64,000 bases of DNA from assembly GCA_026874595.1 (NCBI GenBank), contig CM049308.1:25592367-25656366 (forward strand). Direction: 5' to 3'. Source of the stretch: Sipunculus nudus (Eukaryota > Annelida > Sipuncula > Golfingiida > Sipunculidae). Below, one piece after another: positions 4,469 to 64,000 of this stretch; position 1 is the stretch's first letter, and every line of letters begins with the position of its first letter. Made by a program: the position numbers and the translations under genes. The notes under the pieces are model-generated. The model had not been told where the DNA came from, did no database searches, and saw nothing but the letters and a program-made list of their open reading frames with translations.

Positions 4469-6573
4469 TTAATCACAAAATTCACAAATGTTATTATCTT
4501 CACCATCAGTACACGCTACATGAGACCAACCGTGAAAAACTTTACACTGAATCCAGTCTTCTCCTGGAGAAGAATTTGTAATAAATCCCCACAAACTAAA
4601 CATGAAGAATCCTTTGAATATGTCTCATTATTTTTGCTGACAGAATGGTATGGGAAATGCAATGTGTTGGTCTGCTGAGGTTTAGCAAGATGTTTTTGCT
4701 TTTCTACTGACTTGGACTTCGACATACGTCTTTTCTTTGTTATTTTTGATATTGAAATTTTTTTGTGACGCCCTTGCGTTTTAAACCTTTGGATTTTCGC
4801 TCATCCATGAGACGGGTCAGGCGAGTTTTCACTGGCGTGCTGGTCAGAATTTCTGTTGTAGATTTATTCCTCTGGGTTCCCCCGTTTCTCGGTCCAGCTG
4901 TCATGAAAGGCCGAAGCATTTCAGGGGTTATATGTTAAGTGGCTGAAGAGATATCCTGCAGTGCCTGTCGCTGGGGGTTCTTGTCTAGAGTGACGGCCTG
5001 TTGTGCGTGTGGCTGGGTTGCCTGGGGAGTCTGGGCTGCTGTGACGGCCTGCTGTGTGTTTGGCTGGGTTGCCTGGGGAGACTGGGATGGAGTCACGGCC
5101 TGCTGTGCATGTGGCTCAATTGCCTGGGGCGTCTAGGCTGGAGTGACGGCCTGCTCTACGTGTGGCTGGGTTGCCTGGGGAGTCTCAGCTGGAGTAACGG
5201 TCTGCTGTGCGTTTGGCTGGGTTGCCTGGGGCGTCTGGGCTGGAATGACGGCCTGCTGTGGGTGTGGCCCGGTTGCATGGGGAGTCTCGCCTGGAGTGAC
5301 TGCCTGCTGTGATTGTGGCTTGGTTGCCTGGATAGTCTCGGATGGAGTGACGGCCTGTTGTGCGTGTGGCTTGGTTGCCTAGGGAGCCTGGGATGGAGTG
5401 AAGGCCTGCTGTGCGTGTGGCTGGATTGCCTGGCCTGTCGCCGTGGCCTGTTGATCAGCTGATAGTGACCTACCAGTAACAAAAGCTGGCATATACTCTT
5501 CCTCTGAGAAAACATATATGTTGTATGGATGTATTCCTGTGACTGCAAAGCCCTTTTGAATGTTGGATGGTGTTGCTGCAAGAGAGAGCGCATCTCTAAC
5601 AATTCCTGGCAAATCATATATTGTCAGGGTTTTGCCTGGGTGTCTTTTCATCCACCCATCACAAGCTGAGTTTATGTACTTCTTAAATGGCCCATAGACA
5701 GAGCGGTCCAGTGGCTGCAGTTTGTGAGAGCAATGTGGTGGGAACGTTGAGACAACCACAACGTTGTCTCTGCAAAAGTCAATCACCGGCAACGATACAT
5801 GAGAAGCATGGTTATTAAGGAGGAGCAGCACAGGATGCTCATTGGTGCATTTGGTGACAAATACGAAATGCTTGATAAAAATGAGAAAGTCTTCTGCTGT
5901 CATCCAGCCATAAGGATTAGCAGACCCTATACATCCAGCTGGACCATTTGCAACGAAATGCTCACGAAAATGAACACGTGGAAATATCGATAGGTGGTAT
6001 CGAGTTCCCACAAGCATTTACAGCAATAGCCATTGTTACTAGAGCCCCCCTCTCAGCTGAAGTGACGGCCCCCTCTTGCTTCACGACACGATTTGCCACA
6101 ATATGATCAGGCCTTTGAACGGTGGTGACCCCCGTCTCGTCACAGTTGTATACTAGTATCTCATGACTTTGAAATCTGTATTTTTCCAGAACAAAGCCTA
6201 AATTGTCAAAGAATTTCTTGACATTGGTTTCATTGAAACTTGTGGCCCTGCTTAGAGACGTTGCTTCGGGGGTCCTTACGGCCAGCGAGGGGTTACGTTT
6301 AAGAAAGGACGAAAACCAGTCTCGGCCAGCCATCTCAGCTGCTGTCAAAGTTCGTGGAAATGTGTTGTGATTACCCACGGCAAACTGATAGGCTAGCTTT
6401 CTTACATCCTTCGGTGTCAATCCATGGTACATTGATGACACTTTTATAACATAATCTGATAACTGTTTCTCTTGTGCCTGTGTAAACACCAACCGTGACA
6501 TTTTGTATCCTATGGTTGGGTTTTCCCCATCCTTCATTTTCTTGCAGTATCTCTGCAGGGTCATGAAATTGAT
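4469..6573 (-). pseudogene. Tigger/pogo-like (Tc1/mariner superfamily) transposase, frameshifted
   Basis: The last exon starts after an acceptor (tttcag) at 6573. It reads a CENP-B-like helix-turn-helix region (FAVGNHNTFPRTLTAAEMAG, WFSSFLKRNP) and then a DDE_1 core: YNCDETGVTT, IPP break, FPRVHF, LLLLNNHASH, TFPPHCSHKLQPLDRSVYGPFKK, GFAVTGIHPYN. The second catalytic position reads LLNNH where the family has LLDNH, so Asp is replaced by Asn. Breaks: a frameshift near 6000, stops at 5379-5381 and near 5134 inside the repeat tail, and frameshifts near 4745 and 4565. The C-terminus ends with a Cys/His knuckle set (CLVCG, then GEDWIQC, WSHVAC, CEFC) typical of these proteins, with a stop at 4469-4471. 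The N-terminal DNA-binding exon was not found. Confidence 0.85.
4990..5446. repeat. 51-bp minisatellite inside the transposase tail
   Basis: Nine units start at 4990, 5041, 5092, 5143, 5194, 5245, 5296, 5347 and 5398, at exactly 51-bp spacing with no indels, plus a partial unit. On the minus strand in the transposase frame each unit encodes 17 residues of the type QAVTPAETPQATQPHAQ. Exact multiples of three keep the frame, so expansion did not itself break the protein; base substitutions made the stops. Confidence 0.9.
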
Positions 6574-6599
6574 CTGAAATACAAAGTAAGAAATCATTG

Positions 6600-7505: not shown

Positions 7506-7644
7506 TTATATCAATATTGGCACTTGTATAGTTCAGGTACTTTCAAAAATGATTAACTGAAAACTGTAGTCATGTATTTACTGTCTTGATAAGCAATGTC
7601 TTGAAGCAGCATTTTATACATCATAAATATAAAACCACATTCAA

Positions 7645-8040
7645 TAGTCAGGTGGCTTAACTGAATTATCGTTACACGCCGGATAAAAGCACCAAATTTG
7701 GTATGAAGTATCTACAGGTCAATCCTGTTCATTTTGGAGGGGGTGCCCACCCGAACTCCGTTTCTGGTTCTTTCAGCAGGCCCGAGTTCAAAATAACAGG
7801 AATTTACGTAAAATTTCACAAGTTTACAACAATAAAAGGAATGTTGTAAACTCATTTGACACTAAAAAACATTCAAATTAATTAATTTACATAATAAGAA
7901 CACCATTATAACATATAATGAACAGTTATCGTAGAAATTGTGACAAAAATAATGTTAAAGTATAATTGTAGGTCGCAAGAGGTCAAAAGGTCACGTCATC
8001 CATTGATGTTAAACTGTATCCTGTGAGTGTGTTCAAGTGC
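7645..8040. repeat. Dispersed repeat, family with AATTATCGTTAC
   Basis: The segment starts CTTAACTGAATTATCGTTAC, runs through CGGATAAAAGCACCAAATTT and TCAGCAGGCCCGAGTTC, and ends near GGTCAAAAGGTCACGTCATC. The same order of landmarks recurs at 8965-9330, and the first part recurs inverted at 12950-13085. No protein is encoded. Confidence 0.6.
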
Positions 8041-8964: not shown

Positions 8965-9330
8965 CAAATAGACAGCCAACTTAATGGAATTATCGTTACA
9001 TATCGAACAAAAACACGAAATTTTGTCAGACGTATCTTCAGGTCAGTCCTTCAGATGCCCATTCAGCAGGCTAGAGTCCACAACAGCAGGATAACAAAAC
9101 GTTATCAGACCTTTAAAACAAAGAAGGGAATGCGGTAAAGTCAGTTGAACCTATATTTCATTTTCATTTAACCAATAATCATATTAGGAACACCCAAATA
9201 TATCAACCATCTGTTGCAGTAAATATGACCAAAACCAGTTTAGTTAAATGTAGTAGCTTCAGGTCAAAAGTCACGTCATACGTTCATCCTTTAATTGGTC
9301 CCTCGTTTTAAAGGTAAAATATTGGAGCTC
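8965..9330. repeat. Second, diverged copy of the AATTATCGTTAC repeat
   Basis: Shared landmarks with 7645-8040 are GGAATTATCGTTACATATCG, an AAATTT block, TCTTCAGGTCAGTCCTTCAG, TTCAGCAGGCTAGAGTCCAC and GGTCAAAAGTCACGTCATAC, in the same order and spacing. It lies directly upstream of the TA tract that borders the Penelope-like element. Confidence 0.55.
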
Positions 9331-9344
9331 GGCTTTTAAGAAAT

Positions 9345-9354
9345 ATATATATAC

Positions 9355-9407
<53 letters not shown>
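9345..9407. repeat. (TA)n / (CATA)n microsatellite
   Basis: ATACATACATACATAC leads into a pure TA run that abuts the left inverted repeat of the Penelope-like element at 9408. A TA-rich target is plausible for the insertion. Confidence 0.9.
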
Positions 9408-9410
<3 letters not shown>

Positions 9411-9452
9411 ACTAAAGTACGGTTAGTTTGACTTCATCAGTTTGGTAGGATT
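9408..9452 (+). repeat. Left inverted repeat of the Penelope-like element
   Basis: It starts ATAACTAAAGTACGGTTAG and is exactly complementary to the right end over 25 bases, then similar for about 19 more. Its inner edge falls within a few bases of the position equivalent to the predicted ribozyme cleavage site at the right end. Confidence 0.85.
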
Positions 9453-10228
9453 TACCAGGAGGCATTACTCAACAGTGGATACAGTTTTAACTCAAGTACA
9501 TCCGCTCGCAACAACCCAACACCGACGGAAAGAAGAGAAACAGAAGGAGGAACATAACGTGGTTCAATCCCCCATACAGCGCCAACGTGAAAACGAACAT
9601 AAGAAAAAAAAAGTTCCTACAGCTTCTTGACAAATGTTTCCCTCCTGACCACAGTTTACACAAAATCCTGAACCGTAACACCGTAAAAATCAGCTATAGC
9701 TGCATGCCTAACATGAAGCAGGTCATTTCAGCACACAACAAAGGACGACTTAACAATGAGAGAATTAAAGAAAAGAAAACAGAGAGCATAAGCAAAAACT
9801 GCAACTGTAGAAACCCGAAAGAATGCCCAATCATAGAGGGATGCCTTACTCAAAGCATAATTTACCAGGCCACAGTTACCAGACAAGATAACAAACAAGT
9901 GGAAACATATATCAGACTGACAGAAAACGCATTTAAAACGAGATACTATGGACACATCAGTAGTTTCAGGAATGAAAAATACAGAAATAGCACAACACTA
10001 AGCCAGTACGTGTGGACTCTGAAAGAAAACAACATACCCTATTCGGTCAAATGGAAAATCATGGCTAAATGCAGAGCTTATTCCAACACGTCCAAAAAAT
10101 GTAATTTATGCACCACCGAGAAATACTACATAATTTGCCGACCTGATCTGAGTTCACTAAACTATAGGAACGAGCTGACAACGTCATGCAAACATAGAAC
10201 TAAATACCTCCTTTGTAACCTTAAATAA
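9442..10228 (+). pseudogene. Penelope-like element C-terminal region with GIY-YIG nuclease domain
   Basis: The first frame reads IYQEALLNSGYSFNS, then a frameshift near 9540 leads to RNITWFNPPYSANVKTNI, FLQLLDKCFPPDHSLHKI and NRNTVKISYSCMPNMKQ, the connector typical of Penelope-like ORFs. A zinc-like CxCx5Cx5C motif (CNCRNPKECPIIEGC) precedes the GIY-YIG domain: IIYQATV, then TYIRLTENAFKTRYYGH, SSFRNEK, LSQYVWTLKE, CNLCTTEK and LNYRNELTTSCKH. The YIG position reads YIR, so the conserved Gly is Arg. The frame is open from 9492 to the TAA at 10226-10228. Confidence 0.85.
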
Positions 10229-10539
10229 TTTAAAGCCGATAATAAAGTTAAATATGCAGTCTCAAGATCCCAGCCAATGTATGCAGGAACAGCCAACTGG
10301 ACTACTAATCCACTGATCTCCTGACCGAACCAACACCTGGGGTCTTGATCAACTTTAAGCAATCCAACAAATCCTCGAGCGCTTCATAATAGCCCTAATA
10401 CAGTACAATAAGCCAGGCACCCAGTAACCCTTATTCACCAACAAAACAAAAACTTTAAATACATGCCTCACCGAACATAGTAACCCCAGATAAATCCTAC
10501 CTATTACGACAAACTTCACCTAAATATATGATCACTCCA

Positions 10540-10603
10540 GTTTGTACCTGAAGAGTGAGCCGGCTTAAATGCTGCTCTCACGAAACAGATCTGTAGCACA
10601 AAC
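10540..10603 (+). ncRNA. Hammerhead ribozyme motif (type I, very short palindromic stem III)
   Basis: All core blocks are present in order. CTGAAGA (10548-10554) fits the conserved CUGANGA. Stem II is GTGAG (10555-10559) with CTCAC (10577-10581). GAAA follows at 10582-10585. Stem III is ACAG/CTGT (10585-10588 with 10591-10594), part of the palindrome ACAGATCTGT with almost no loop. The cleavage triplet GTA ends at 10595. Stem I pairs GTTTGTAC (10540-10547) with GCACAAAC (10596-10603), with one A-C mismatch. Such tiny stem III is typical of Penelope hammerheads, which are thought to cleave best as dimers. Predicted cut: after 10595. Confidence 0.85.
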
Positions 10604-10635
10604 CGATGACGTCAAACTAACCGTACTTTAGTTAT
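10592..10635 (+). repeat. Right inverted repeat of the Penelope-like element
   Basis: Bases 10611-10635 are the exact reverse complement of the left end; similarity extends inward through CAAACCGATGAC. It overlaps the 3' strand of hammerhead stem I. Confidence 0.85.
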
Positions 10636-10707
10636 TTATTTATAAACGCTCCCACACGGTAGAGCACTATCACCGCGATGTATTGAATTCACGCCATGTG
10701 AACAATA

Positions 10708-10710
<3 letters not shown>

Positions 10711-10754
<44 letters not shown>
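10711..10754. repeat. (TA)n microsatellite
   Basis: A pure TA run lies about 75 bases downstream of the Penelope-like element. Confidence 0.9.
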
Positions 10755-10758
<4 letters not shown>

Positions 10759-12949: not shown

Positions 12950-13085
12950 TTTATCTCGTAGGTTCTTAAAGAGGGCAACCCCTCTGAAATCATCCGTTTT
13001 GGTGTAATCTACCCATATACAAAATTTGGTGCTTTTATCCGGTCTGTAACGATATGGCCAAAATCTGACGCTAAGCCACCGGACT
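12950..13085. repeat. Inverted fragment of the AATTATCGTTAC repeat
   Basis: Read on the minus strand it gives GTGGCTTAGCGTCAGATTTT, ATATCGTTACAGACCGG and ATAAAAGCACCAAATTTTGT, matching the start of the 7645-8040 copy. Confidence 0.5.
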
Positions 13086-18261: not shown

Positions 18262-21065
18262 ATAGATCACTGATGGTCATGATTTTTTTGCATACATATT
18301 GATCATGAGATGTTCCATCAGTTCCTGCAGACTGGTGGCGCCACCTGTATTTTTCGATTTTTTACGAATTGTTTTCTCTATTCTTGAGACCTTTTAAAAC
18401 GTGAACAAACAGGGCACAAACAGGGCACAATTCGTCAAGACTGGACCTAGAATCTTCATTCTTGACATTCTGAGAGACCCATGAAAAGTCTCCATGGAAA
18501 CCAGATATTAGGTCTCTGTTGCCCATATCCTTTGAGCTATGGGGCCTCAAAGTACCCCCAGAATAGTCAAAAATTTCACACAAAACCTTTAATATCTCAT
18601 TGACTACATCACTGATGGTCATGGTTTTTGGCATACATATTAATCATGAGATGCTGCATCTGTTCCTGCAGACTGGTGGCGCCACCTGTATTTTTCGATT
18701 TTTTAAAGATTTTGTTTTCTCTATTTTTGAGACCTTTTAAATGTGAACATCTGTTAACAGGGCACAAATCATAAAGACTGTACCTAGAATCTCCATTCTT
18801 GACACAGTGAGAGACCTATGAAAAGTCTCCATGGATACCTGTAATAAGGTCTCTGTTACCCATATCCTTTGAGCTGTGGGGCTCCCAATTACCCCCCCCC
18901 CCCCCAGAATAATGGAAAATTTGATAAAAACAAACTGCCACATCGCAATAACTACAACACTGATGGTCATGATTTTTGGCATACACATTGATCAAGAGGT
19001 GTTCCATCCGTTTCTGCAGACTGGTGGCACCACCTGTATTTGTACGGGTTTTTTTTACGATTTTTTCTCTATTTTTGAGACCTTTAAAGATATGAACATC
19101 TGTTAACAGGGCACAAATCATAACAACTGGACCTAGAATCTTCATTCTTGACACACAGGGAGACCCATGAAAAGTCTCCATGGAAACCTGAAATTAGGTC
19201 TCTGTTACCCATATCCTTTGAGCTGTATGGCTCCAAAACACCCCCCAGAATAATGAAAAATTTGATACAAAAACTGCAGTATCTCAATAACTACAACACT
19301 GATGGCCATGATTTTTTGCATACATATTGATCATGAGGTGTTCCATCAGGTTCTGCAGACTGGGTGCGCCACCTATAATTTTTTACAATTTTTAAGAGTT
19401 TTTTTCTCTATTTTTTTAGACCTTTAAAGATATGGTTATTTGTCAACAGGGTACAAATCGTAACAACTGGACCTAGAATCTTCATTCTTGTTAGCAAGGA
19501 GGCCCATAAAAAGTGTCTGTGGAAACCTGAAATTAGATCTCTGTTTCCCATATCCTTCGAGCTATAGGACTCCGAAGTATATCTCAGAATAATAGAAAAT
19601 TTGATACAAAAGCTGAAGTATCTGACCAACTAATGCAGAGATCAGCATGATTCTTGGCATGGATATTGACCATTAAGTGTTTTTATTAGTTTCTGCAGAC
19701 TGGTATTTTTGTATGGCAAAAACGAAGTTTTGCGGATACTGTGTTTTTGACGGGGTTCCGCCGCCGCCGCCGCGAGAACTCCTCTGAGACTACAAGAACG
19801 ATTTTTCCGAAACTTACACCAATTATCGGGTCACATGTGAACTGGTGCCTAACCAATTTGCGTTGACCTTTGACCTTTCCTATCTGCCCAGGGTCCATTT
19901 GTGCGTCTGTTTCCACACATAAACCCTCATACCTCGGGAACCGTAGGACCGATCAGGAATTTTTTTTTTATACAAATGTAGCCCTTAAATAACTTTATAA
20001 CATACACAAAAATGGTGGCGCCATCTGCAACCATGTTTGCACAGCGTCCGTCTGTTTAACTGCGGTGGGATAATATCATATCTCATATCTCGGCAGTGGT
20101 TTGACATATCTGCCTAAAATTTTGCAGTTTTATACATCCATGACAGCTTTCTTGATTTTATGACAGGTGGCGCCACCTACATTCTAGTTTACGCTGCTGA
20201 CATCCAAGCTCAAATCTCGGGAACCGTTTGACCGATTGGGCCAAAATTTTGCATGTATATGGACCTAACATAGGTCTTTATCATACAAAAAACTGGAGGG
20301 GCCACCTGCAACCATTTTTGTACAGCGTCTTTCTGTTTGTCTGCCGTGGGCTAAAATCACTCATATCTCTGTAGTTGTTTGAAATAACTGCCTAACATTT
20401 TGCAGGTTTATACATCCTGGACAGCTTTCTTGATTTTATGACAGGTGGCGCCACCTACATTCTAGTTTATGCTGCAGACATCCAGGCTCATATCTCGGGA
20501 ACCATTTGACCGATTGGGCCAAAATTGTGCATGTGTTTAGATCTCACATAGGTCTTTATCATAAACAAAACTGGTAGGGCCGCCTGCAACCATTTTTGCA
20601 CAGCGTCTGTCTGTTTGTCTGCCGTGGGCTAAAATCACTCATATACATGTAGTGGTTTGACTTTCCTTCTTAAATATCGCATTTGTATACAACTTGGACA
20701 GCTTTCTGGATTTGTGGTGGGTGGTACAACCTACACACACATTTAGGCTGCAGACATCCATGCTTATATGCCACACACCTCACTCTATTTCCCCATGCCA
20801 CTCAATCCATGCCTCACTTCACCAATTCCACTCTGATTTTGGCGGATACACGTATTCGCTTGTTGACTATCCGTATTCTAGTTTTTAAAGTTTACGCATT
20901 TTTTCTTTATTTTTGATAGATATAAATACAGACACAATCTTTGCCTGTTGGTTAATCTGTTTGATGCTTCAGTTGAATGGGTATACACTACCGTTATGAT
21001 GATAAAATTTCCTTTTGCGAATCTCTTCCCAGTCAGCTGAGCGTCGTGACCCATGGGTCACTTGT
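18262..21065 (-). repeat. Tandem array element, minus orientation, interrupted by a Helitron-like insertion
   Basis: Units of about 340-350 bp recur at landmarks GATGGTCATG near 18272, 18612 and 18962 and GATGGCCATG near 19301. Each has CTGCAGACTGGTGGCGCCAC, GGACCTAGAATCTTCATTC and AGGTCTCTGTTACCCATATC. The same unit, reverse-complemented, forms 53215-57872. After the insertion at 19714-20881 the sequence resumes (TTTTTAAAG...TTTTTGA) and ends at 21030-21065 with GTCAGCTGAGC plus GTGACCCATGGGTCACTTG, matching the reverse complement of the start of the 53.2-kb array. The opposite end is missing at about 18250. Confidence 0.8.
19714..20881 (+). mobile_element. Non-autonomous Helitron-like element with tandem core
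   Basis: The 3' end is a hairpin CGGATA (20843-20848) with TATCCG (20868-20873), then TATT, then CTAG (20878-20881), followed by host T. The 5' end is worn here (TGGCAAAAACG), but a second copy begins TCCGCCAAAAC. The interrupted array shows that host A and T flank the insertion. Terminal TC...CTRR, a 3' hairpin and A/T insertion without duplication are Helitron hallmarks. The inside has a GCCGCCGCCGCCGCG block and three units of about 280 bp at 19.9-20.8 kb, two with GGTGGCGCCACC. No Rep/helicase is encoded. Confidence 0.7.
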
Positions 21066-33171: not shown

Positions 33172-35925
33172 ACTAGATGTGTCGGAACGACACGAATACC
33201 CCCGCCTGAGGCAAATTAGCAACATTTGTTAAATTTTGTAAAATTTTTTAAGTTCAGGAGGTGTCGTATGGTCAAAAATAGGTCAACGGGGACGAAATGC
33301 AAATTCGATCTGTAACTGGTCATTATCTGCCCACATATAAAAAATCAGGGTGGTATCTGCAGGCATTGCGGAAAAAAAGTCAGTACATATGCATTTGTTA
33401 TGAAAATTTCTGTTTTTCATGAAACTTTCTATGTTCAGGAGCCGTAAAATGGTCAAAAGTAGATCAACTGGGACAAAACAAAAACTTGATCTGTAGATGG
33501 TCATTATCTGCATACACACCAAAAATCAGGCCCGTATCTGCAGTCATTGCGAAAAAAAGTCCGTACATGTGCACTTGTCATGAAAATTTATATTTTCTAT
33601 GAAATTTTCTATGTTAGGGCACCGTCAAACGGTCAAAAGTGGGTCAACTGGGACAAAACATGAACTCAATCTGTAATTGGTCATTATCTGCCCACGCACC
33701 AAAAATCAGGCCAGTACCTGCAGGCATTGCGAAAAAAGTTCGTACATGTGTATTTGTCATGAAAAGTTCTATTTTCATGAAATTTTCAATGTTCAGGAGC
33801 CGTAAAACGGTCAAAAGTAGGTCAACTGGGACAAAACGCGAACTCGATCTGTAACTGGTCAATATCTGCCTACAAACCAAAAATCAGGCCAATATCTGCA
33901 GGCATTGCGAAAAAAGTCCGTACATGTGTATTTGTCATGAAAAGTTCTATTTTCATGAAATTTTCTATGTTCAGGAGCTGTAAAACGGTAAAAAGTAGGT
34001 CAACTGGAACAAAACGCGAACTCGATCTGTAACTGGTCAATATCTGCCTACAAACCAAAATAAGGCCAATATCTGCAGGCATTGCGAAAAAAGTCCGTAC
34101 ATGTGTATTTGTCATGAAAATTTACATTTTTCATGAAATTTTCTTAGTTAAGGAGCCGTAAAATGATCAAAAGTAGGTCAACCGAGACGAAACGCGAAGT
34201 CGATCTGTAACTGGTCATTATCTGCCCACACACAAAAATCAGGTCAATATCTGTAGGCATTGCGAAAAAAAGTCCGTACATGAATATTTGTCATAAAAAA
34301 TTCTAAGTTTAGGAGCCGTTAAATGGTCAAAAGTAGGTCAACCGGGACGAAACGCGAACTCGATCTGTAAATGGACATTATCTGCCACCACACCAAAAAT
34401 CAGGCCAATACCTGCAGGCATTGCGAAAAAAAGTCCGTACATGAATATTTGTCATAAAAAATTTCAATTTTTTATGAAATTTTCTTAGTTTAGGAGCCGT
34501 AAAACGGTCAAAAGTAGGTCAACTGGGACAAAACGCGAACTCGATCTGTAACTGGTCAATATCTGCCTACAAACCAAAAATCAGGCCAATATCTGCAGGC
34601 ATTGCGAAAAAAGTCCGTACATGTGTATTTGTCATGAAAAGTTCTATTTTCATGAAATTTTCTATGTTCAGGAGCTGTAAAACGGTAAAAAGTAGGTCAA
34701 CTGGGACAAAACGCGAACTCGATCTGTAACTGGTCAATATCTGCCTACAAACCAAAATAAGGCCAATATCTGCAGGCATTGCGAAAAAAGTCCGTACATG
34801 TGCACTTGTCATGAAAATTTATATTTTCTATGAAATTTTCTATGTTAGGGCACCGTCAAACGGTCAAAAGTGGGTCAACTGGGACAAAACATGAACTCAA
34901 TCTGTAATTGGTCATTATCTGCCCACGCACCAAAAATCAGGCCAGTACCTGCAGGCATTGCGAAAAAAGTTCGTACATGTGTATTTGTCATGAAAAGTTC
35001 TATTTTCATGAAATTTTCTATGTTCAGGTGCCGTAAAACGGTCAAAAGTAGGTCAACTGGGACAAAACGCGAACTCGATCTGTAACTGGTCAATATCTGC
35101 CTACAAACCAAAAATCAGGCCAATATCTGCAGGCATTGCGAAAAAAAGTCCTTACATGTGTATTTGTCATGAAAAGTTCTATTTTCATGAAATTTTCTAT
35201 GTTCAGGAGCTATAAAACGGTAAAAAGTAGGTCAACTGGGACAAAACGCGAACTCGATCTGTAACTGGTCAATATCTGCCTACAAACCAAAATAAGGCCA
35301 ATATCTGCAGGCATTGCGAAAAAAGTCCGTACATGTGTATTTGTCATGAAAATTTACATTTTTCATGAAATTTTCTTAGTTAAGGAGCCGTAAAATGATC
35401 AAAAGTAGGTCAACCGAGACGAAACGCGAAGTCGATCTGTAACTGGTCATTATCTGCCCACACACAAAAATCAGGTCAATATCTGTAGGCATTGCGAAAA
35501 AAAGTCCGTACATGAATATTTGTCATAAAAATTTCTAAGTTTAGGAGCCGTTAAATGGTCAAAAGTAGGTCAACCGGGACGAAACGCGAACTCGATCTGT
35601 AAATGGACATTATCTGCCACCACACCAAAAATCAGGCCAATACCTGCAGGCATTGCGATAAAAAGTCCGTACATGAATATTTGTCATAAAAATTTCAATT
35701 TTTTATGAAATTTTCTTAGTTTAGGAGCCGTAAAACGGTCAAAAGTAGGTCAACCGGGACGAAACGCGAACTCAATCTGTAACTGGCCACACATTAAAAA
35801 TCAGGCCAATATCTGCAGGCATTGCGAAAAAAAGTCCGGACAACTGTTTGATTTCGGAATGACGGAAGGACGGACATGGGTAAAACTATATGCCCCGGCC
35901 ACTTTATCGCGGGGTAATAAAAAAG
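33172..35925. mobile_element. Expanded copy of the GTCGGAACGACACG element with about 15 tandem units
   Basis: It starts GATGTGTCGGAACGACACG and ends CGGACATGGGTAAAACTATA then TGCCCCGGCCACTTTATCGC, the same ends as 2437-2738. In between the landmark GGCATTGCG recurs at about 33363, 33545, 33724, 33903, 34081, 34259, 34420, 34601, 34779, 34957, 35134, 35312, 35490, 35651 and 35822, mostly at 177-182 bases and twice at 161. A 1231-base offset duplicates several units (about 33590-34500 onto 34820-35730). Small frames inside are repeat translation, not genes. Confidence 0.9.
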
Positions 35926-53214: not shown

Positions 53215-56200
53215 ACTGGAAACAAGTGACCTAGGGGTCATGACGCTCAGCTGACCAGGAAGACATTGACAAAAGTAATTTTATCATCTGAATGTCAAAT
53301 TTGAATGAAATACTTTTTCCAAACTTGACCTTTTGTATAAAATCATCCGATATTCATTGGGGTACTATGGAGCTCTGTAGCATGAAGGATATGGGTAAAA
53401 GACACCTATTTTCAAGGTTTACAAGATGACTTTTCAGGGGTCTCCCAGCATGTCAAAAAATAAAATTCTAGGTCCAGTTATTATGATTTGTGCCCTGTTA
53501 ACAAATCCAAATGTTTATTCTGGGGGTATTTCAAAGCCGCATAGGATGAAGGATATGGGTAACAGAGATGTAATTTCAGGTGCACAAGGAGACTTTTCAG
53601 GGGCCTCCCAGCATATCAAGAAAGGAGATTCTAGGTCAAGTCATTATAATTTGTGCTCTGTTAACAGATGACCAAATCTTTATTCTGGGGAGTACTTCGG
53701 AGCCCCAGAGAATGAAGGATATGGGTAACAGGGACCTTATTTTGGGTTTCCATGTAGACCTTTTATGGGCTTCCCTGGAGGTGAGGACAGAAGATTCTAG
53801 GTCCAGTCATTATGATTTGTGCCCTGTTAATATATGACCAAATCTTTATTCTGGGGGGTACTTCAGAGCCCCATGGCTCACAGAATATGGGTAACAGGGA
53901 CCTTATTTCGGGTTTCCATGTAGACCTTTTATGGGCTTCCCTGGAGGTGAGGACAGAAGATTCTAGGTCCAGTCATTATGATTTGTGCCCTGTTTACAGA
54001 TGACCAAATGTTTAAAGATCACAAAAGTAGAGAAAAAAAATCGTAAAAAAATAAAAAAAATATAGGTGGCGCCACCAATCTCCAGAAATTGATGAAACAC
54101 TCCATGATCAATATCCATGCAAAGAATCATGGTGATTAATGCATTAGTTGTTCAGATACTTGAGCTTTTGTATTAAATTTTGCATCATTCTGGGGGGTAC
54201 TTCACAACCCCATAGCTTGAAGAATATAGGTCACAGTGACCTAATTTCAGGTTTAAAAGGAGAATTTCCATAGACCTCCCAGGATTTCAAGTAAGAAGAT
54301 TCCCGGTCTAGCGGTTACAATTTGTGCCCTGTTAACAGACAGACGCCTGGATGGCCGGACGGACGACGGACAAAAGGTGATCCCTACAGCTCAGATGACT
54401 TTCAGTCAGCTGAGCTAAAAATTGAAAAAATACAGGTGGCGCCACCAGAATGCAGAAACTGATGAAACATTTCATGATCAATATCCATGCAAAGAATCAT
54501 GGTGATCAATATAATAATTGTTCAGATACTTGAACTTTTGTATCAAATTTTCCATTATTCTGGGGGGTACTTCGGAGCCCCATAGCTCAGAGGTTATGGG
54601 TAACAGAGACCTAATTTCAAGTTTTTAAGGAAACTTTTCATGGGCCATTCAGCATGTCAAGAGAGAAGATTCTAGGTCCAGTTGTTACGATTTGTGCCAT
54701 GTTAACAGATGACCGCATCTTATGAGGTCTCAAAAATAGAGAAAAAAATTCGTAAAAATAAAAAAAAATACAGGTGGCGCCACCATACTGCAGAAACTGA
54801 TGACACATTCCATGATCAATATCCATGCAAAGAATCATGGTGATCACTGCAATAGTTGTTTAGATACTTGAGCTTTTGTATCAAATTGTCCATTATTCTG
54901 AGGGATACTTCAGATGACTTACAGTCAGCTGAGCTAAATCACTTAATGGTCAATATCCATGCAAAGAATCATGATGATATCCGTATTAGTTGTTCAGATA
55001 CTTCAGCTTTTGTATCAAATTGTCCATTATTCTGAGGGATACTTCAGAGACCTATAGCTTGAAGGATATGGGTAACAGAGACCTAATTTCAAGTTTCCAC
55101 AGGCAATCTTCATGGGCCTCCTTGCATGACAAGAATGAAGTTTCTAGGTCCAGTTGTTGCAATTTGTACCCTCTTGATAGATAACATAGGTGGCGCCACC
55201 AGTCTGCAGGAACTGATGGAACATCTCATAATCAATATGTATGCCAAAAATCATGACCATCAGTGATGTAGTTATTGAGATATTGAAGTTTTTGTATGAA
55301 ATTTTTGACTACTCTGGGGGGGTACTTTGGGGCCCCATAGCTCGAAGGATATGGGTAACAGAGACCTAATTTCTGGTTTCCATGGAGACTTTTCATAGGT
55401 CTTCTAGTGTGTTGAGAATGAAGATTCTAGGTCCAGTCGTTACTATTTGTGCCATGCTAACAGATGACAGCATCCTTAAAGGTCTCAAAAATTAAGGAAA
55501 AAATCGTAAAAAATCGAACGATACAGGTGGCGCCACCAGTCTGCAGGAACAGATGACACATCTCATGATCAATAGTTATGCCACAAATCATGACCATCAT
55601 TCAAGTAGTTAATGAGATATTGAGGTTTTTGTATGAATTTTTTTACTTTTCTTGGGGGTACTTTAGGGCTCCATAGCTCGAAGAATATGGGTAACAGAGA
55701 CCTAATTTTGGTTTCCATGGAGACTTTTCATAGGTCTCTCAGATGACAGCATCCTTAAAGGTCTCAAAAATAGAGGAAAAAATCGTAAAAAATCAAACAA
55801 TACAGGTGGCGTCACAAGTCTGCAGGAACTGATGGAAAATTTCATAATCAATATGTATGCCAAAAATCATGACCATCAGTGATGTAGTTATTGAGATATT
55901 GAAGTTTTTGTATGAAATTTTTGACTACTCGGGGGGGGGGGGGGGGGGTACTTTGGGGCCCCATAGCTCGAAGGATATGGTTTACAGAGACCTAATATCT
56001 GGTTTCCAAGGATATTTTTCATGGACCTCTCAGTGTGTCAAGAATGAAGATTCTAGGTCCAGTCGTTACGATTTGTGCCATGCTAACAGATGACAGCATC
56101 CTTAAAGGTCTCAAAAATAGAGGAAAAATCGTAAAAAATCAAACAATAAAGGTGGCACCACCAGTCTGCAGGAAGTGATGACACATCTCATGATCAATAG

Positions 56201-57769
56201 TTATGCCATAAATCATGACCATCAGTCAAGTAGTTAATGAGATATTGAAGTTTTTGTATGAAATTTTTTACTTTTCTTGGGGGTACTTTGGGGCCCCATA
56301 GCTCGAAGAATATGGGTAACAGAGACCTAATTTCTGGTTTCCATGGGGACTTTCCATAGGTCTCTCAGTGTGTCAAGAATGAAGATTCTAGGTCCAGTCT
56401 TTACGATTTGTGCCTTGTTAACAGATGTTTACATTTTGAAAGGTCTCAAAAATATAGAAAAAAATTCTTAAAAAATTGAACGATATAGGTGGCGCCACCA
56501 GTCTGCAGGAAGTGATGGAACATCTCATGATCAATATGTATGACAAAAATCATGACCATCAGTCAAGTATTTAATGAGATATTGAAGTTTTTGTTTGAAA
56601 TTTTTTACTTTTCTGGGGGGTAGTTTGGGGCCCCATAGCTCGAAGAATATGGGTAACAGAGACCTAATTTCTGGTTTCCAAGGATATTTTTTATGGACCT
56701 CTCAGTGTGTCAAGAATGAAGATTCTAGGTCCAGTCGTTACGATTTGTGCCATGCTAACAGATGACAGCATCCTTAAAGGTCTCAAAAATAGAGGAAAAA
56801 TCGTAAAAAATCGAACAATAAAGGTGGCACCACCAGTCTGCAGGAAGTGATGACACATCTCATGATCAATAGTTATGCCATAAATCATGACCATCAGTCA
56901 AGTAGTTAATGAGATATTGAAGTTTTTGTATGAAATTTTTTACTTTTCTTGGGGGTACTTTGGGGCTCCATAGCTCGAAGAATATGGGTAACAGAGACCT
57001 AATTTCTGGTTTCCATGGGGACTTTCCATAGGTCTCTCAGTGTGTCAAGAATGAAGATTCTAGGTCCAGTCTTTACGATTTGTGCCTTGTTAACAGATGT
57101 TTACATTTTGAAAGGTCTCAAAAATATAGAAAAAAATTCTTAAAAAATTGAACGATATAGGTGGCGCAACCAGTCTGCAGGAAGTGATGGAACATCTCAT
57201 GATCAATATGTATGACAAAAATCATGACCATCAGTCAAGTATTTAATGAGATATTGAAGTTTTTGTTTGAAATTTTTTACTTTTCTGGGGGGTAGTTTGG
57301 GGCCCCATAGCTCGAAGAATATGGGTAACAGAGACCTAATTTCTGGTTTCCAAGGAGACTTTTCATAGGTCTCTCAGTGTGTCGAGAATGAAGATTCTAA
57401 GTCCAGTCATTACGATTTGTGCCTTGTTAACAGATGTTCACATTTTTAAAGGTCTCAAAAATAGAGAAAAAAATTCGTAAAAAATCGAAAAATACAGGTG
57501 GCGCCACCAGTCTTCAGGAAATGATGGAACCTCTCATGATCAATATGTATGCCAAAAATCATGACCATCAGTCAAGTAGTTAATGAGATATTGAAGTTTT
57601 TGTATGAAATTTTGGACTTTTCTGGGGGGTACTTTGGGGCCCCATAGCTCGAAGGATATGGGTAACAGAGACCTAATTTCTGGTTTCCAAGGAGATTTTT
57701 CATGGACCTCCCAGGATGTCAAGTTAGAAGATTCCAGTTCTAGAGGTTACGATTTGTGCCTGGTTAACG

Positions 57770-62559: not shown

Positions 62560-62966
62560 TTATTATGTATGTGTACCCATCTTCACTCGACATCAAATAC
62601 ATGGAGGGGGTGGTGAGGGGGGGGGGGGGTTTGAGGTGTTGGAAATGTCAATGTCTCTCTGTTGAATGTAACCAGCTTCACACATACGTGTGTACCTGTC
62701 TTCACTCGACATCAAATACATGGAGTGTGTGTGTGTGTGTGGGGGGGGGGGGGAGTGAGGTGTTGGACAGTACTCTCTGACAAATGTGACTGGCCTCACA
62801 CACATAGGTATGTGTACCTGTCTTCACTCGACATCAAATACATGGAGTGTGTGTGTGTGGGGGGGGGGGGGGGGGGAGAAGGTGTTGGACAGTACTCTCT
62901 GACAAATGTGACTGGCCTCACACACATAAGTATGTGTACCTGTCTTCACTCGACATCAAATACATG

Positions 62967-62999
<33 letters not shown>

Positions 63000-64000
63000 G
63001 GAGTGAGGTGTTGGACAGTACTCTCTGACAAATGTGACTGGCCTCACACACATAGGTATGTGTACCTGTCTTCACTCGACATCAAATACATGGAGTGTGT
63101 GTGTGTGGGGGGGCGGGGGGGGGGGGGGGGGTGGAGTGAGGTGTTGGACAGTACTCTCTGTCAAATGGGACTGGCCTCACACACATAGGTATGTGTACCT
63201 GTCTTCACTCGACATCAAATACATGGAGTGTGTGTGTGGGGGGGGGGGGGGGGGGGGAGTGAGGTTTTGGACAGTACTCTCTGACAAATGTGACCGGCCT
63301 CACACACATAGGTATGTGTACCTGTCTTCACTCGACATCAAATACATGGAGTGTGTGTGTGTGGGGGGGGGGGGGGGGGGGGAGGGTGAGATGTTGGACA
63401 GTACTCTCTGAAAAATGGAGGGGGATGGTGAGGGGAGGGGGGGTTTGAGGTGTTGGACAATACTTTCTGTCAAATGTGACTAGCCTCACACACAAAGGTG
63501 TGTGTACCTGTATTCACTCCACATTAAAAACATGGAGTGGGGGTTCAAGGTGTTGGACAGTACTCTCTGTCAAATGTGACTGGCCTCACACACATAGGTA
63601 TGTGCACCTGTCTTCACTCGACATCAAATACATGGAGTGTGTGTGTGTGTGGGGGGGGGGGAGTGAGGTGTTGGACAGTACTCTCTGACAAATGTGACTG
63701 GCCTCACACACATAGGTATGTGTACCTGTCTTCACTCGACATCAAATACATGGAGTGTGTGTGTGTGTGGGGGGGGGGGGGGTAGTGAGGTGTTGGACAG
63801 TACTCTCTGTCAAATGTGACTGGCCTCACACACATAGGTATGTGTACCTGTCTTCACTCGACATCAAATACATGGAGTGTGTGTGTGTGTTGGGGGGGGG
63901 GGGGGAGTGAGGTGTTGGACAGTACTCTCTGACAAATGTGACTGGCCTCACACACTTAGGTATGTGTACCTGTCTTCACTCGACATCAAATACATGGAGT
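62560..64000. repeat. G-rich minisatellite, unit about 122 bp, runs off the window
   Basis: TCACTCGACATCAAATACATGG recurs (one worn unit) near 62583, 62702, 62824, 62947, 63071, 63205, 63328, 63511, 63614, 63731, 63853 and 63976. Each unit has ACACATAGGTATGTGTACCT, then (GT)n, then a run of 10-20 G, then AGTGAGGTGTTGGACAGTAC. Unit length varies because the GT and G runs vary. The small frames predicted here are repeat translation. The array continues beyond the window. Confidence 0.95.

Follow-up and report, generated by a model that had tools for sequence, protein, structure and literature searches.

The 64,000-nucleotide stretch of the Sipunculus nudus genome analyzed here (the window) contains, at 10540-10603 on the forward strand, a motif that we regard as confirmed at the sequence level to be a real type I hammerhead ribozyme with correctly placed borders. 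It belongs to a known kind, the minimal hammerheads with a palindromic stem III of Penelope-like elements, and its host is a 5'-truncated Penelope-like element, an assignment supported by insertion anatomy and protein motifs. We propose, as a fairly probable overall model, that the motif is the minimal type I hammerhead of a pseudo-LTR, that the RNA of the element starts at 10534 or 10539, that the ribozyme cuts as a dimer, and that the template of reverse transcription is mostly uncut.

The core elements CUGANGA, GAA and UH are found at 10540-10603 together with three helices arranged as in type I. Specifically, the catalytic box CTGAAGA (C3-A9), recognized by direct reading and by a motif descriptor, occupies 10548-10554 and is followed by the stem II region at 10555-10581, in which 10555-10559 pair with 10577-10581 to form 5 bp and the loop may hold an extra CGGC/GCTG helix (10561-10564/10571-10574) closed by a hexaloop. 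The segment 10582-10595 comprises the GAA box (10582-10584), the palindromic stem III and H17. The perfect palindrome ACAGATCTGT spans 10585-10594, and the pair A10585-T10594 closes stem III inside it, whereas the G-T-A at 10593-10595 is followed by the predicted cut between A10595 and 10596. Stem I is formed by 10540-10547 and 10596-10603 with 7 of 8 pairs and an A.C mismatch at 10546/10597; by eye, a tertiary contact between loops I and II would have on one side just this mismatch in place of a distinct loop I, and on the other a long loop II. H17 is not G and the A15.1-U16.1 pair is present; of 28 copies, 23 carry A and 5 carry C at H17, and 27 have U at position 16.1.

The segment 10536-10608 has an ordinary minimum free energy, 20 of 200 shuffled sequences being equally stable (z -1.36). 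In the monomer ensemble, the outer six stem I pairs reach probabilities of 0.83-0.97 and the stem II pairs 0.92-0.94, whereas the inner C-G pair of stem I reaches just 0.17 and stem III 0.02 or less. At -13.7 kcal/mol, the complete hammerhead fold is 3.2 kcal/mol less stable than the best structure (-16.9). On the other hand, the ten-base palindrome forms a self-duplex of -13.6 kcal/mol with a second copy. Dimer action fits the motif, because stem III is unformed in the monomer and the self-duplex of the palindrome is strong, and such action is described for hammerheads of Penelope-like elements in the cited passages (PMC6466107, PMC7761336).

A search of the genome (1.43 Gb, 153 contigs) with a 201-bp query, in which the best 40 of 712 candidates were scored, gave 39 scored copies besides the window with 91-97% identity over the matched stretch. 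Among 28 extracted hammerhead matches, which include the window itself and one 21-nt partial match, 21 share an identical 64-nt sequence that differs from the window by one loop II base (10567); these 21 include four from an array on contig C12. The aligned hammerhead-bearing copies stop and give way to (TA)n either at 10711 or close to 10644, except L016+4820 and L026, which continue past 10711. Locus L016 holds the tandem form, a 3,324-bp unit in which two hammerheads lie 3,324 bp apart with ORF pieces between them, and its sequence continues beyond 10711 into an N-terminal coding part, its ORF also being in pieces. The pseudo-LTR and tandem-unit arrangement of Penelope-like elements is thus found in L016 and not in the window itself. 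The four C12 copies, spaced 6,420 bp apart, were considered as a tandem Penelope-like element and rejected, as they are part of a larger duplicated unit, and they were counted once. This array (L011-L013, C12:8532000-8561700) holds four copies of a tandem unit of about 6,420 bp, all of which contain one and the same truncated Penelope-like fragment, and is young, since identity exceeds 99% in the stretches compared.

Penelope-like elements encode a telomerase-like reverse transcriptase and a GIY-YIG endonuclease. The ORF pieces carry YRDDGL and a Cys-rich linker, which we take to be those of a Penelope reverse transcriptase and endonuclease, and the 213-aa ORF remnant of the window (9587-10228, +), downstream of which the ribozyme lies, is read as the C-terminal endonuclease part. 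The ORF pieces have no Pfam match above the cut-off, the PDB yields no credible relative of the ORF, and IMG/VR yields no relatives by protein or by motif; two fold predictions of the pieces reach a pLDDT of 37-39, too poor for a structure search. The Penelope assignment is therefore built on anatomy and on these motifs, because the libraries confirm no protein. By eye, the reading frame 5' of the 213-aa ORF differs from that of L016.

Taken together, most of the preliminary description holds. CTGAAGA is present, as are the 5-bp stem II, a stem III that is palindromic and a stem I with one mismatch; its Penelope-like host is supported by anatomy and protein motifs; its argument for a dimer is borne out by the monomer ensemble, the self-duplex and published precedent; and its truncated and shifted ORF agrees with a sense part that begins at about 9456, the 213-aa remnant and the deviating upstream frame. 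Its suggestion that the RNA may outlive the protein, however, finds no support, as the window locus holds one hammerhead, where L016 holds a tandem pair, and the descriptor finds no tandem partner in the 64 kb. An intact motif is no proof of such survival, because the youth of the copy alone, in a family whose 39 other scored copies are 91-97% identical, may explain its intactness.

The insertion in the window has two arms. The sense arm (9456-10711, +; left end at about 9453-9456) corresponds to antisense cDNA begun at 10711, and the inverted second arm (9407-9444, -) is complementary to 10599-10636 (95%). By eye, this second arm stops at template position 10599 and is followed by a filler at 9445-9455 (-) and then by the sense arm from about 9456; the filler is mostly the reverse complement of 10491-10501, again by eye, and may reflect a template jump. 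The target flanks are an AT-rich simple repeat, mostly (TA)n, at 9342-9406 on the left and (TA)n at 10712-10755 on the right. In line with this anatomy, insertions across the genome consist of one or two inward-reading antisense cDNA arms, T arms from an outer reverse-transcription start at 10711, beyond which two tandem-like copies extend, and S arms from an inner start at 10644 (outer ends aligned at 10628-10644 in copies). All 7 loci in which the outer ends of both arms could be aligned have one T arm (10711) and one S arm (10644; 10639 in L022). The inverted arm, optional tail and AT-rich target of Penelope-like elements are all found here. The arm anatomy also matches the inverted pseudo-LTRs of rotifer Penelope, for which the authors favor self-priming in the passage cited (PMC3846280).

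Several loci have unusual arm arrangements. L035, L036 and L057 are two-armed with arms that meet at almost the same base, which yields long near-perfect palindromes; the sub-threshold Rfam microRNA-precursor matches of L036 are probably due to its long palindrome. L058 (C7:11489175-11489812) has two directly oriented T arms separated by 125 bp and resembles a second insertion into (TA)n beside an older copy; its inner end lies at most 2 bases from the ribozyme cut site.

To map where arms end, copies were resampled with ribozyme-free queries starting near 10604 or 10639, one of which may include 1-2 ribozyme bases. Each search scored the best 40 of 281-474 candidates, which biases the sample toward well-preserved tails. 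As the majority of tail queries started near 10604, ends at 10607-10644 are under-sampled. With duplicate L068 removed, the count comprises 84 loci with 87 T and 39 S arms (126). L012, L013, L051 and L068 were left out as duplicates of L011, L050 and L055, and L028, L032, L037 and L041 as loci found only by the hammerhead-holding query. Both L054 arms were set by hand to 10607 and the L040 T arm to 10529; the second L058 arm (10250) runs off the fetched piece yet is counted as an end, and the arms of L033, L034, L039, L043, L045, L046 and L086, which run off their pieces at or before 10239, are scored as ending upstream of 10241.

The zone 10534-10607 takes 74 of the 126 arm ends (47/87 T, 27/39 S). 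Per nucleotide, the T arm hazard is 0.0106 in 10534-10603 versus 0.0025 in 10241-10533 (p 9e-8), and the S arm hazard 0.0162 versus 0.0052 in the same intervals (p 0.015). In the second batch alone, the zone excess agrees for T arms (p 0.016), whereas S arm ends are commoner upstream (0.018 in the zone, 13/723 nt, versus 0.054, 3/56 nt; p 0.10). T and S arms differ strongly in length (KS p 5e-13) and weakly in the template coordinates of their ends (KS p 0.02; second batch 0.99). Template position therefore matters, because the T and S starts lie 67 nt apart yet the ends share the zone.

Within the zone, the ends are piled up at 10534-10539, just 5' of stem I, which takes 18 of the 74 ends (6 expected, p 2e-5), or 10 of 38 when the second batch is counted by itself (p 7e-4). 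The most-used position is 10539 (8/74), followed by 10534, 10538, 10585 and 10599 with 4 each. TCACTCC (A+1 at 10534) and CCAGTTT (A+1 at 10539) are two of the three initiator matches in 10401-10700, with the initiator consensus taken as YYANWYY, which occurs once per 81 nt here and was looked up after the pile was known. Exactly at these two initiator A's lie 12 of the 74 zone ends. We therefore put forward, tentatively and with somewhat less than even confidence, that the arm ends record RNA 5' ends, that 10534-10539 (+) marks putative starts 1-6 nt before the hammerhead, and that the reverse-transcription template is not cut by the ribozyme. Arm ends are also scattered throughout the whole ribozyme and, because ends occur inside it, pausing, RNA damage or trimming also contribute.

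The same pile could arise if the transcriptase fell off on leaving the folded ribozyme, or if arm ends were joined there, rather than from an RNA 5' end; we judge this unlikely. The pile does adjoin stem I from outside, arm ends occur all through the ribozyme, and arm-arm junctions overlap by a few bases. A fold, however, should stop the enzyme at its entry, and 10600-10607 is not enriched (5/74, 8 expected). Moreover, 6 of the 48 T arms without an S arm (assigned by rule) end at 10536-10539, although three of these six loci (L053, L080, L085) carry other element pieces and only L067, L073 and L076 are clean, and the fullest position coincides with an initiator A.

Still less probable, in our view, is that ribozyme-cut RNA is the usual template, with cDNA extending to the new 5' end at 10596. 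Individual arms do end there or nearby: the L049 T arm exactly at 10596, T arms at 10594 (L058, L059), 10597 (L081, L084) and 10598 (L072), and the S arms of the window, L048, L049 and L096 at 10599; in addition, the hammerhead of a plant retrozyme LTR trims the transcript at its 5' side in vivo, according to the passage cited (PMC12029980). Against this, 10593-10599 is not enriched, with 10 of 74 zone ends (7 expected, p 0.16) and 4 of 38 in the second batch (3.6 expected), and cut-site ends, a candidate raised by the window arm (10599) and L049 (10596), are not upheld in the enlarged sample. Cut RNA is thus unsupported as the main template, which agrees with the Anolis element PAc, in which hammerhead mutants left in vitro insertion unaffected (PMC11167929).

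A descriptor composed after the motif was known (CTGANGA, 4-bp stem II, GAA, 3-bp stem III with A15.1-U16.1, H17, and a stem I of 7/8 pairs with G-U allowed) has a single match on both strands of the 64 kb, at 10540-10603. Its chance expectation is 0.005 per window (one match in total among 200 first-order Markov sequences), whereas core and stem II alone would be expected 0.375 times. The covariance-model check suggested by the preliminary description failed to return a hammerhead in any of three Rfam searches: at the gathering threshold, the 64-kb window gives 0 matches of any family; no hammerhead is found in 10490-10660 at E up to 10; and none is found in copies L036, L089 and L045 with weak matches admitted. 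The gathering score is a detection rule and does not define the ribozyme, and these negatives are taken as a probable limit of the covariance models. Because the Rfam models miss the motif, the hammerhead call relies on the descriptor and the genomic copies.

Variation was re-measured on tail-chosen copies, since an earlier test on 20 copies from the hammerhead-holding query (0.39% in the hammerhead versus 1.2-2.6% in the flanks) was possibly biased, and the gap is then smaller. Across 28 tail-selected T arms crossing the ribozyme (L078 dropped for a spurious long alignment), the 64-nt hammerhead varies by 1.57%, versus 3.27-3.36% in the two adjoining upstream 64-nt blocks (p 1.6e-4); the third and fourth blocks upstream vary by 3.93% and 2.17% (the latter 10284-10347). 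The tail at 10645-10711, which served to choose the copies, is as low as the hammerhead at 1.76%. Shared variants within the ribozyme are limited to loop II 10567 and H17 A/C, both tolerated positions, versus 23 shared variants in 192 sites at 10348-10539 (Fisher p 0.049, with the quieter block 10284-10347 and its 3 shared variants left out). The core is not untouched, as single copies are changed at 10548, 10550 and 10551. Copy variation lends modest support to function in active source elements, not in the window copy. The possibility that the motif is a chance look-alike in a repeat that was never catalytic fits the missing Rfam match, the weak monomer stem III, the A.C mismatch of stem I and the ordinary fold energy; we hold it to be very improbable, given the rarity of descriptor matches by chance, the presence of the motif in copies across the genome and the confinement of shared variants to tolerated positions. 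A non-autonomous retrozyme in place of a Penelope-like element can hardly be the host, even though animal type I hammerheads are said, in the passage cited, to sit mostly in retrozymes (PMC7229834), as no 150-450 bp non-coding tandem repeats with a hammerhead occur in the window, the motif is absent from all of its tandem arrays, and in the 3,324-bp unit of L016 it is joined to pieces of a reverse transcriptase/endonuclease-like ORF.

The window also holds other repeats. Two tandem arrays, at 18268-19704 (339 bp) and 55740-57768 (337 bp), have consensus units that are alike by eye and in opposite orientation, share a GGTGGCGCCACC-like core and give no match to the hammerhead descriptor. A satellite-like repeat of 178 bp occurs about 15 times at 33241-35842, and a G-rich 122-bp tandem array at 62567-64000 has the strongest GC skew among the 2-kb bins of the window. 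Dispersed repeat copies, direct and inverted, surround the Penelope-like element (7643-7726, 8967-9050, 13017-13054). ORF pieces at 5156-6597 (-), which by their motifs resemble a pogo/Tigger-type DDE transposase, adjoin a 51-bp tandem repeat at 4988-5433.

In the model that we propose, transcription would begin at 10534 or 10539, and the ribozyme would therefore fill about 60 nt at the 5' end of the transcript. Tandem pseudo-LTRs would place a second ribozyme near the RNA 3' end, and the two stem III palindromes could pair. The resulting hammerhead dimer would cut after A10595, possibly aided by the protein of the element, as is the case for Anolis PAc. Using both cut target strands as primers, the element protein would start antisense cDNA at the internal sites 10711 and 10644; cDNAs begun in the 5' pseudo-LTR would run off the RNA 5' end, whereas those begun in the 3' pseudo-LTR would extend into the ORF. 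The template RNA would be mostly uncut, because arm ends show no accumulation at the cut site, and the window copy would be a truncated, single-ribozyme product of such a Penelope-like insertion process. If this is true, the ribozyme is an RNA leader and would act on a different pool of RNA or once the cDNA has been made. Genomic arm ends may provide an RNA-free test of in vivo cutting, which here favors an uncut template and a ribozyme at the start of the RNA, and the map may be applied to other genomes carrying such a family. Among the listings and passages surveyed on Penelope-like elements, hammerheads and transcription starts, none describes arm-end mapping or locates the hammerhead of a Penelope element at the beginning of its RNA.

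Cervera and de la Pena in 2014 and Lunse, Weinberg and Breaker in 2017 reportedly described minimal type I hammerheads from Penelope-like elements. As far as the citing passages describe them, the Sipunculus motif is like these in being of type I, in lying in a pseudo-LTR within tandem units, and in its short stem III, palindromic loop and dimer logic. It has a 3-bp stem III with a GATC loop, whereas many such motifs are described in these passages without helix III, and a position at the putative RNA 5' end is unstated there.

The closest parallels in the insertion process are with the Poseidon element PAc of Anolis carolinensis, in which both target strands are extended by the element protein from two internal start sites, and for which no reads were found to begin or end at the hammerhead cut site (PMC11167929). 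As in PAc, the Sipunculus hammerhead lies near internal reverse-transcription starts, two starts define the tail, the target is AT-rich and both strands are extended (PMC11167929). The PAc ORF starts at stem II, so that the cut falls 26 bp inside the ORF, and cutting needs the protein (PMC11167929); unlike in PAc, the cut in L016 precedes the beginning of the N-terminal coding part. Additionally, the passages cited from PMC7229834 describe newt and axolotl satellite hammerheads that likewise have a very short helix III with a palindromic tetraloop and work better as dimers, yet sit in retrozyme repeats of about 330 bp without an ORF, unlike the Sipunculus copy. Finally, in the passages cited for the plant LTR retrozyme NbRZ1, the repeat carries a promoter and the ribozyme lies downstream of the mapped start, so that the RNA loses its 5' part on cutting (PMC12029980), a likeness in layout to Sipunculus; NbRZ1 differs in that its hammerhead is of type III and that, as a plant LTR retrozyme, it is without a reverse transcriptase of its own (PMC12029980).
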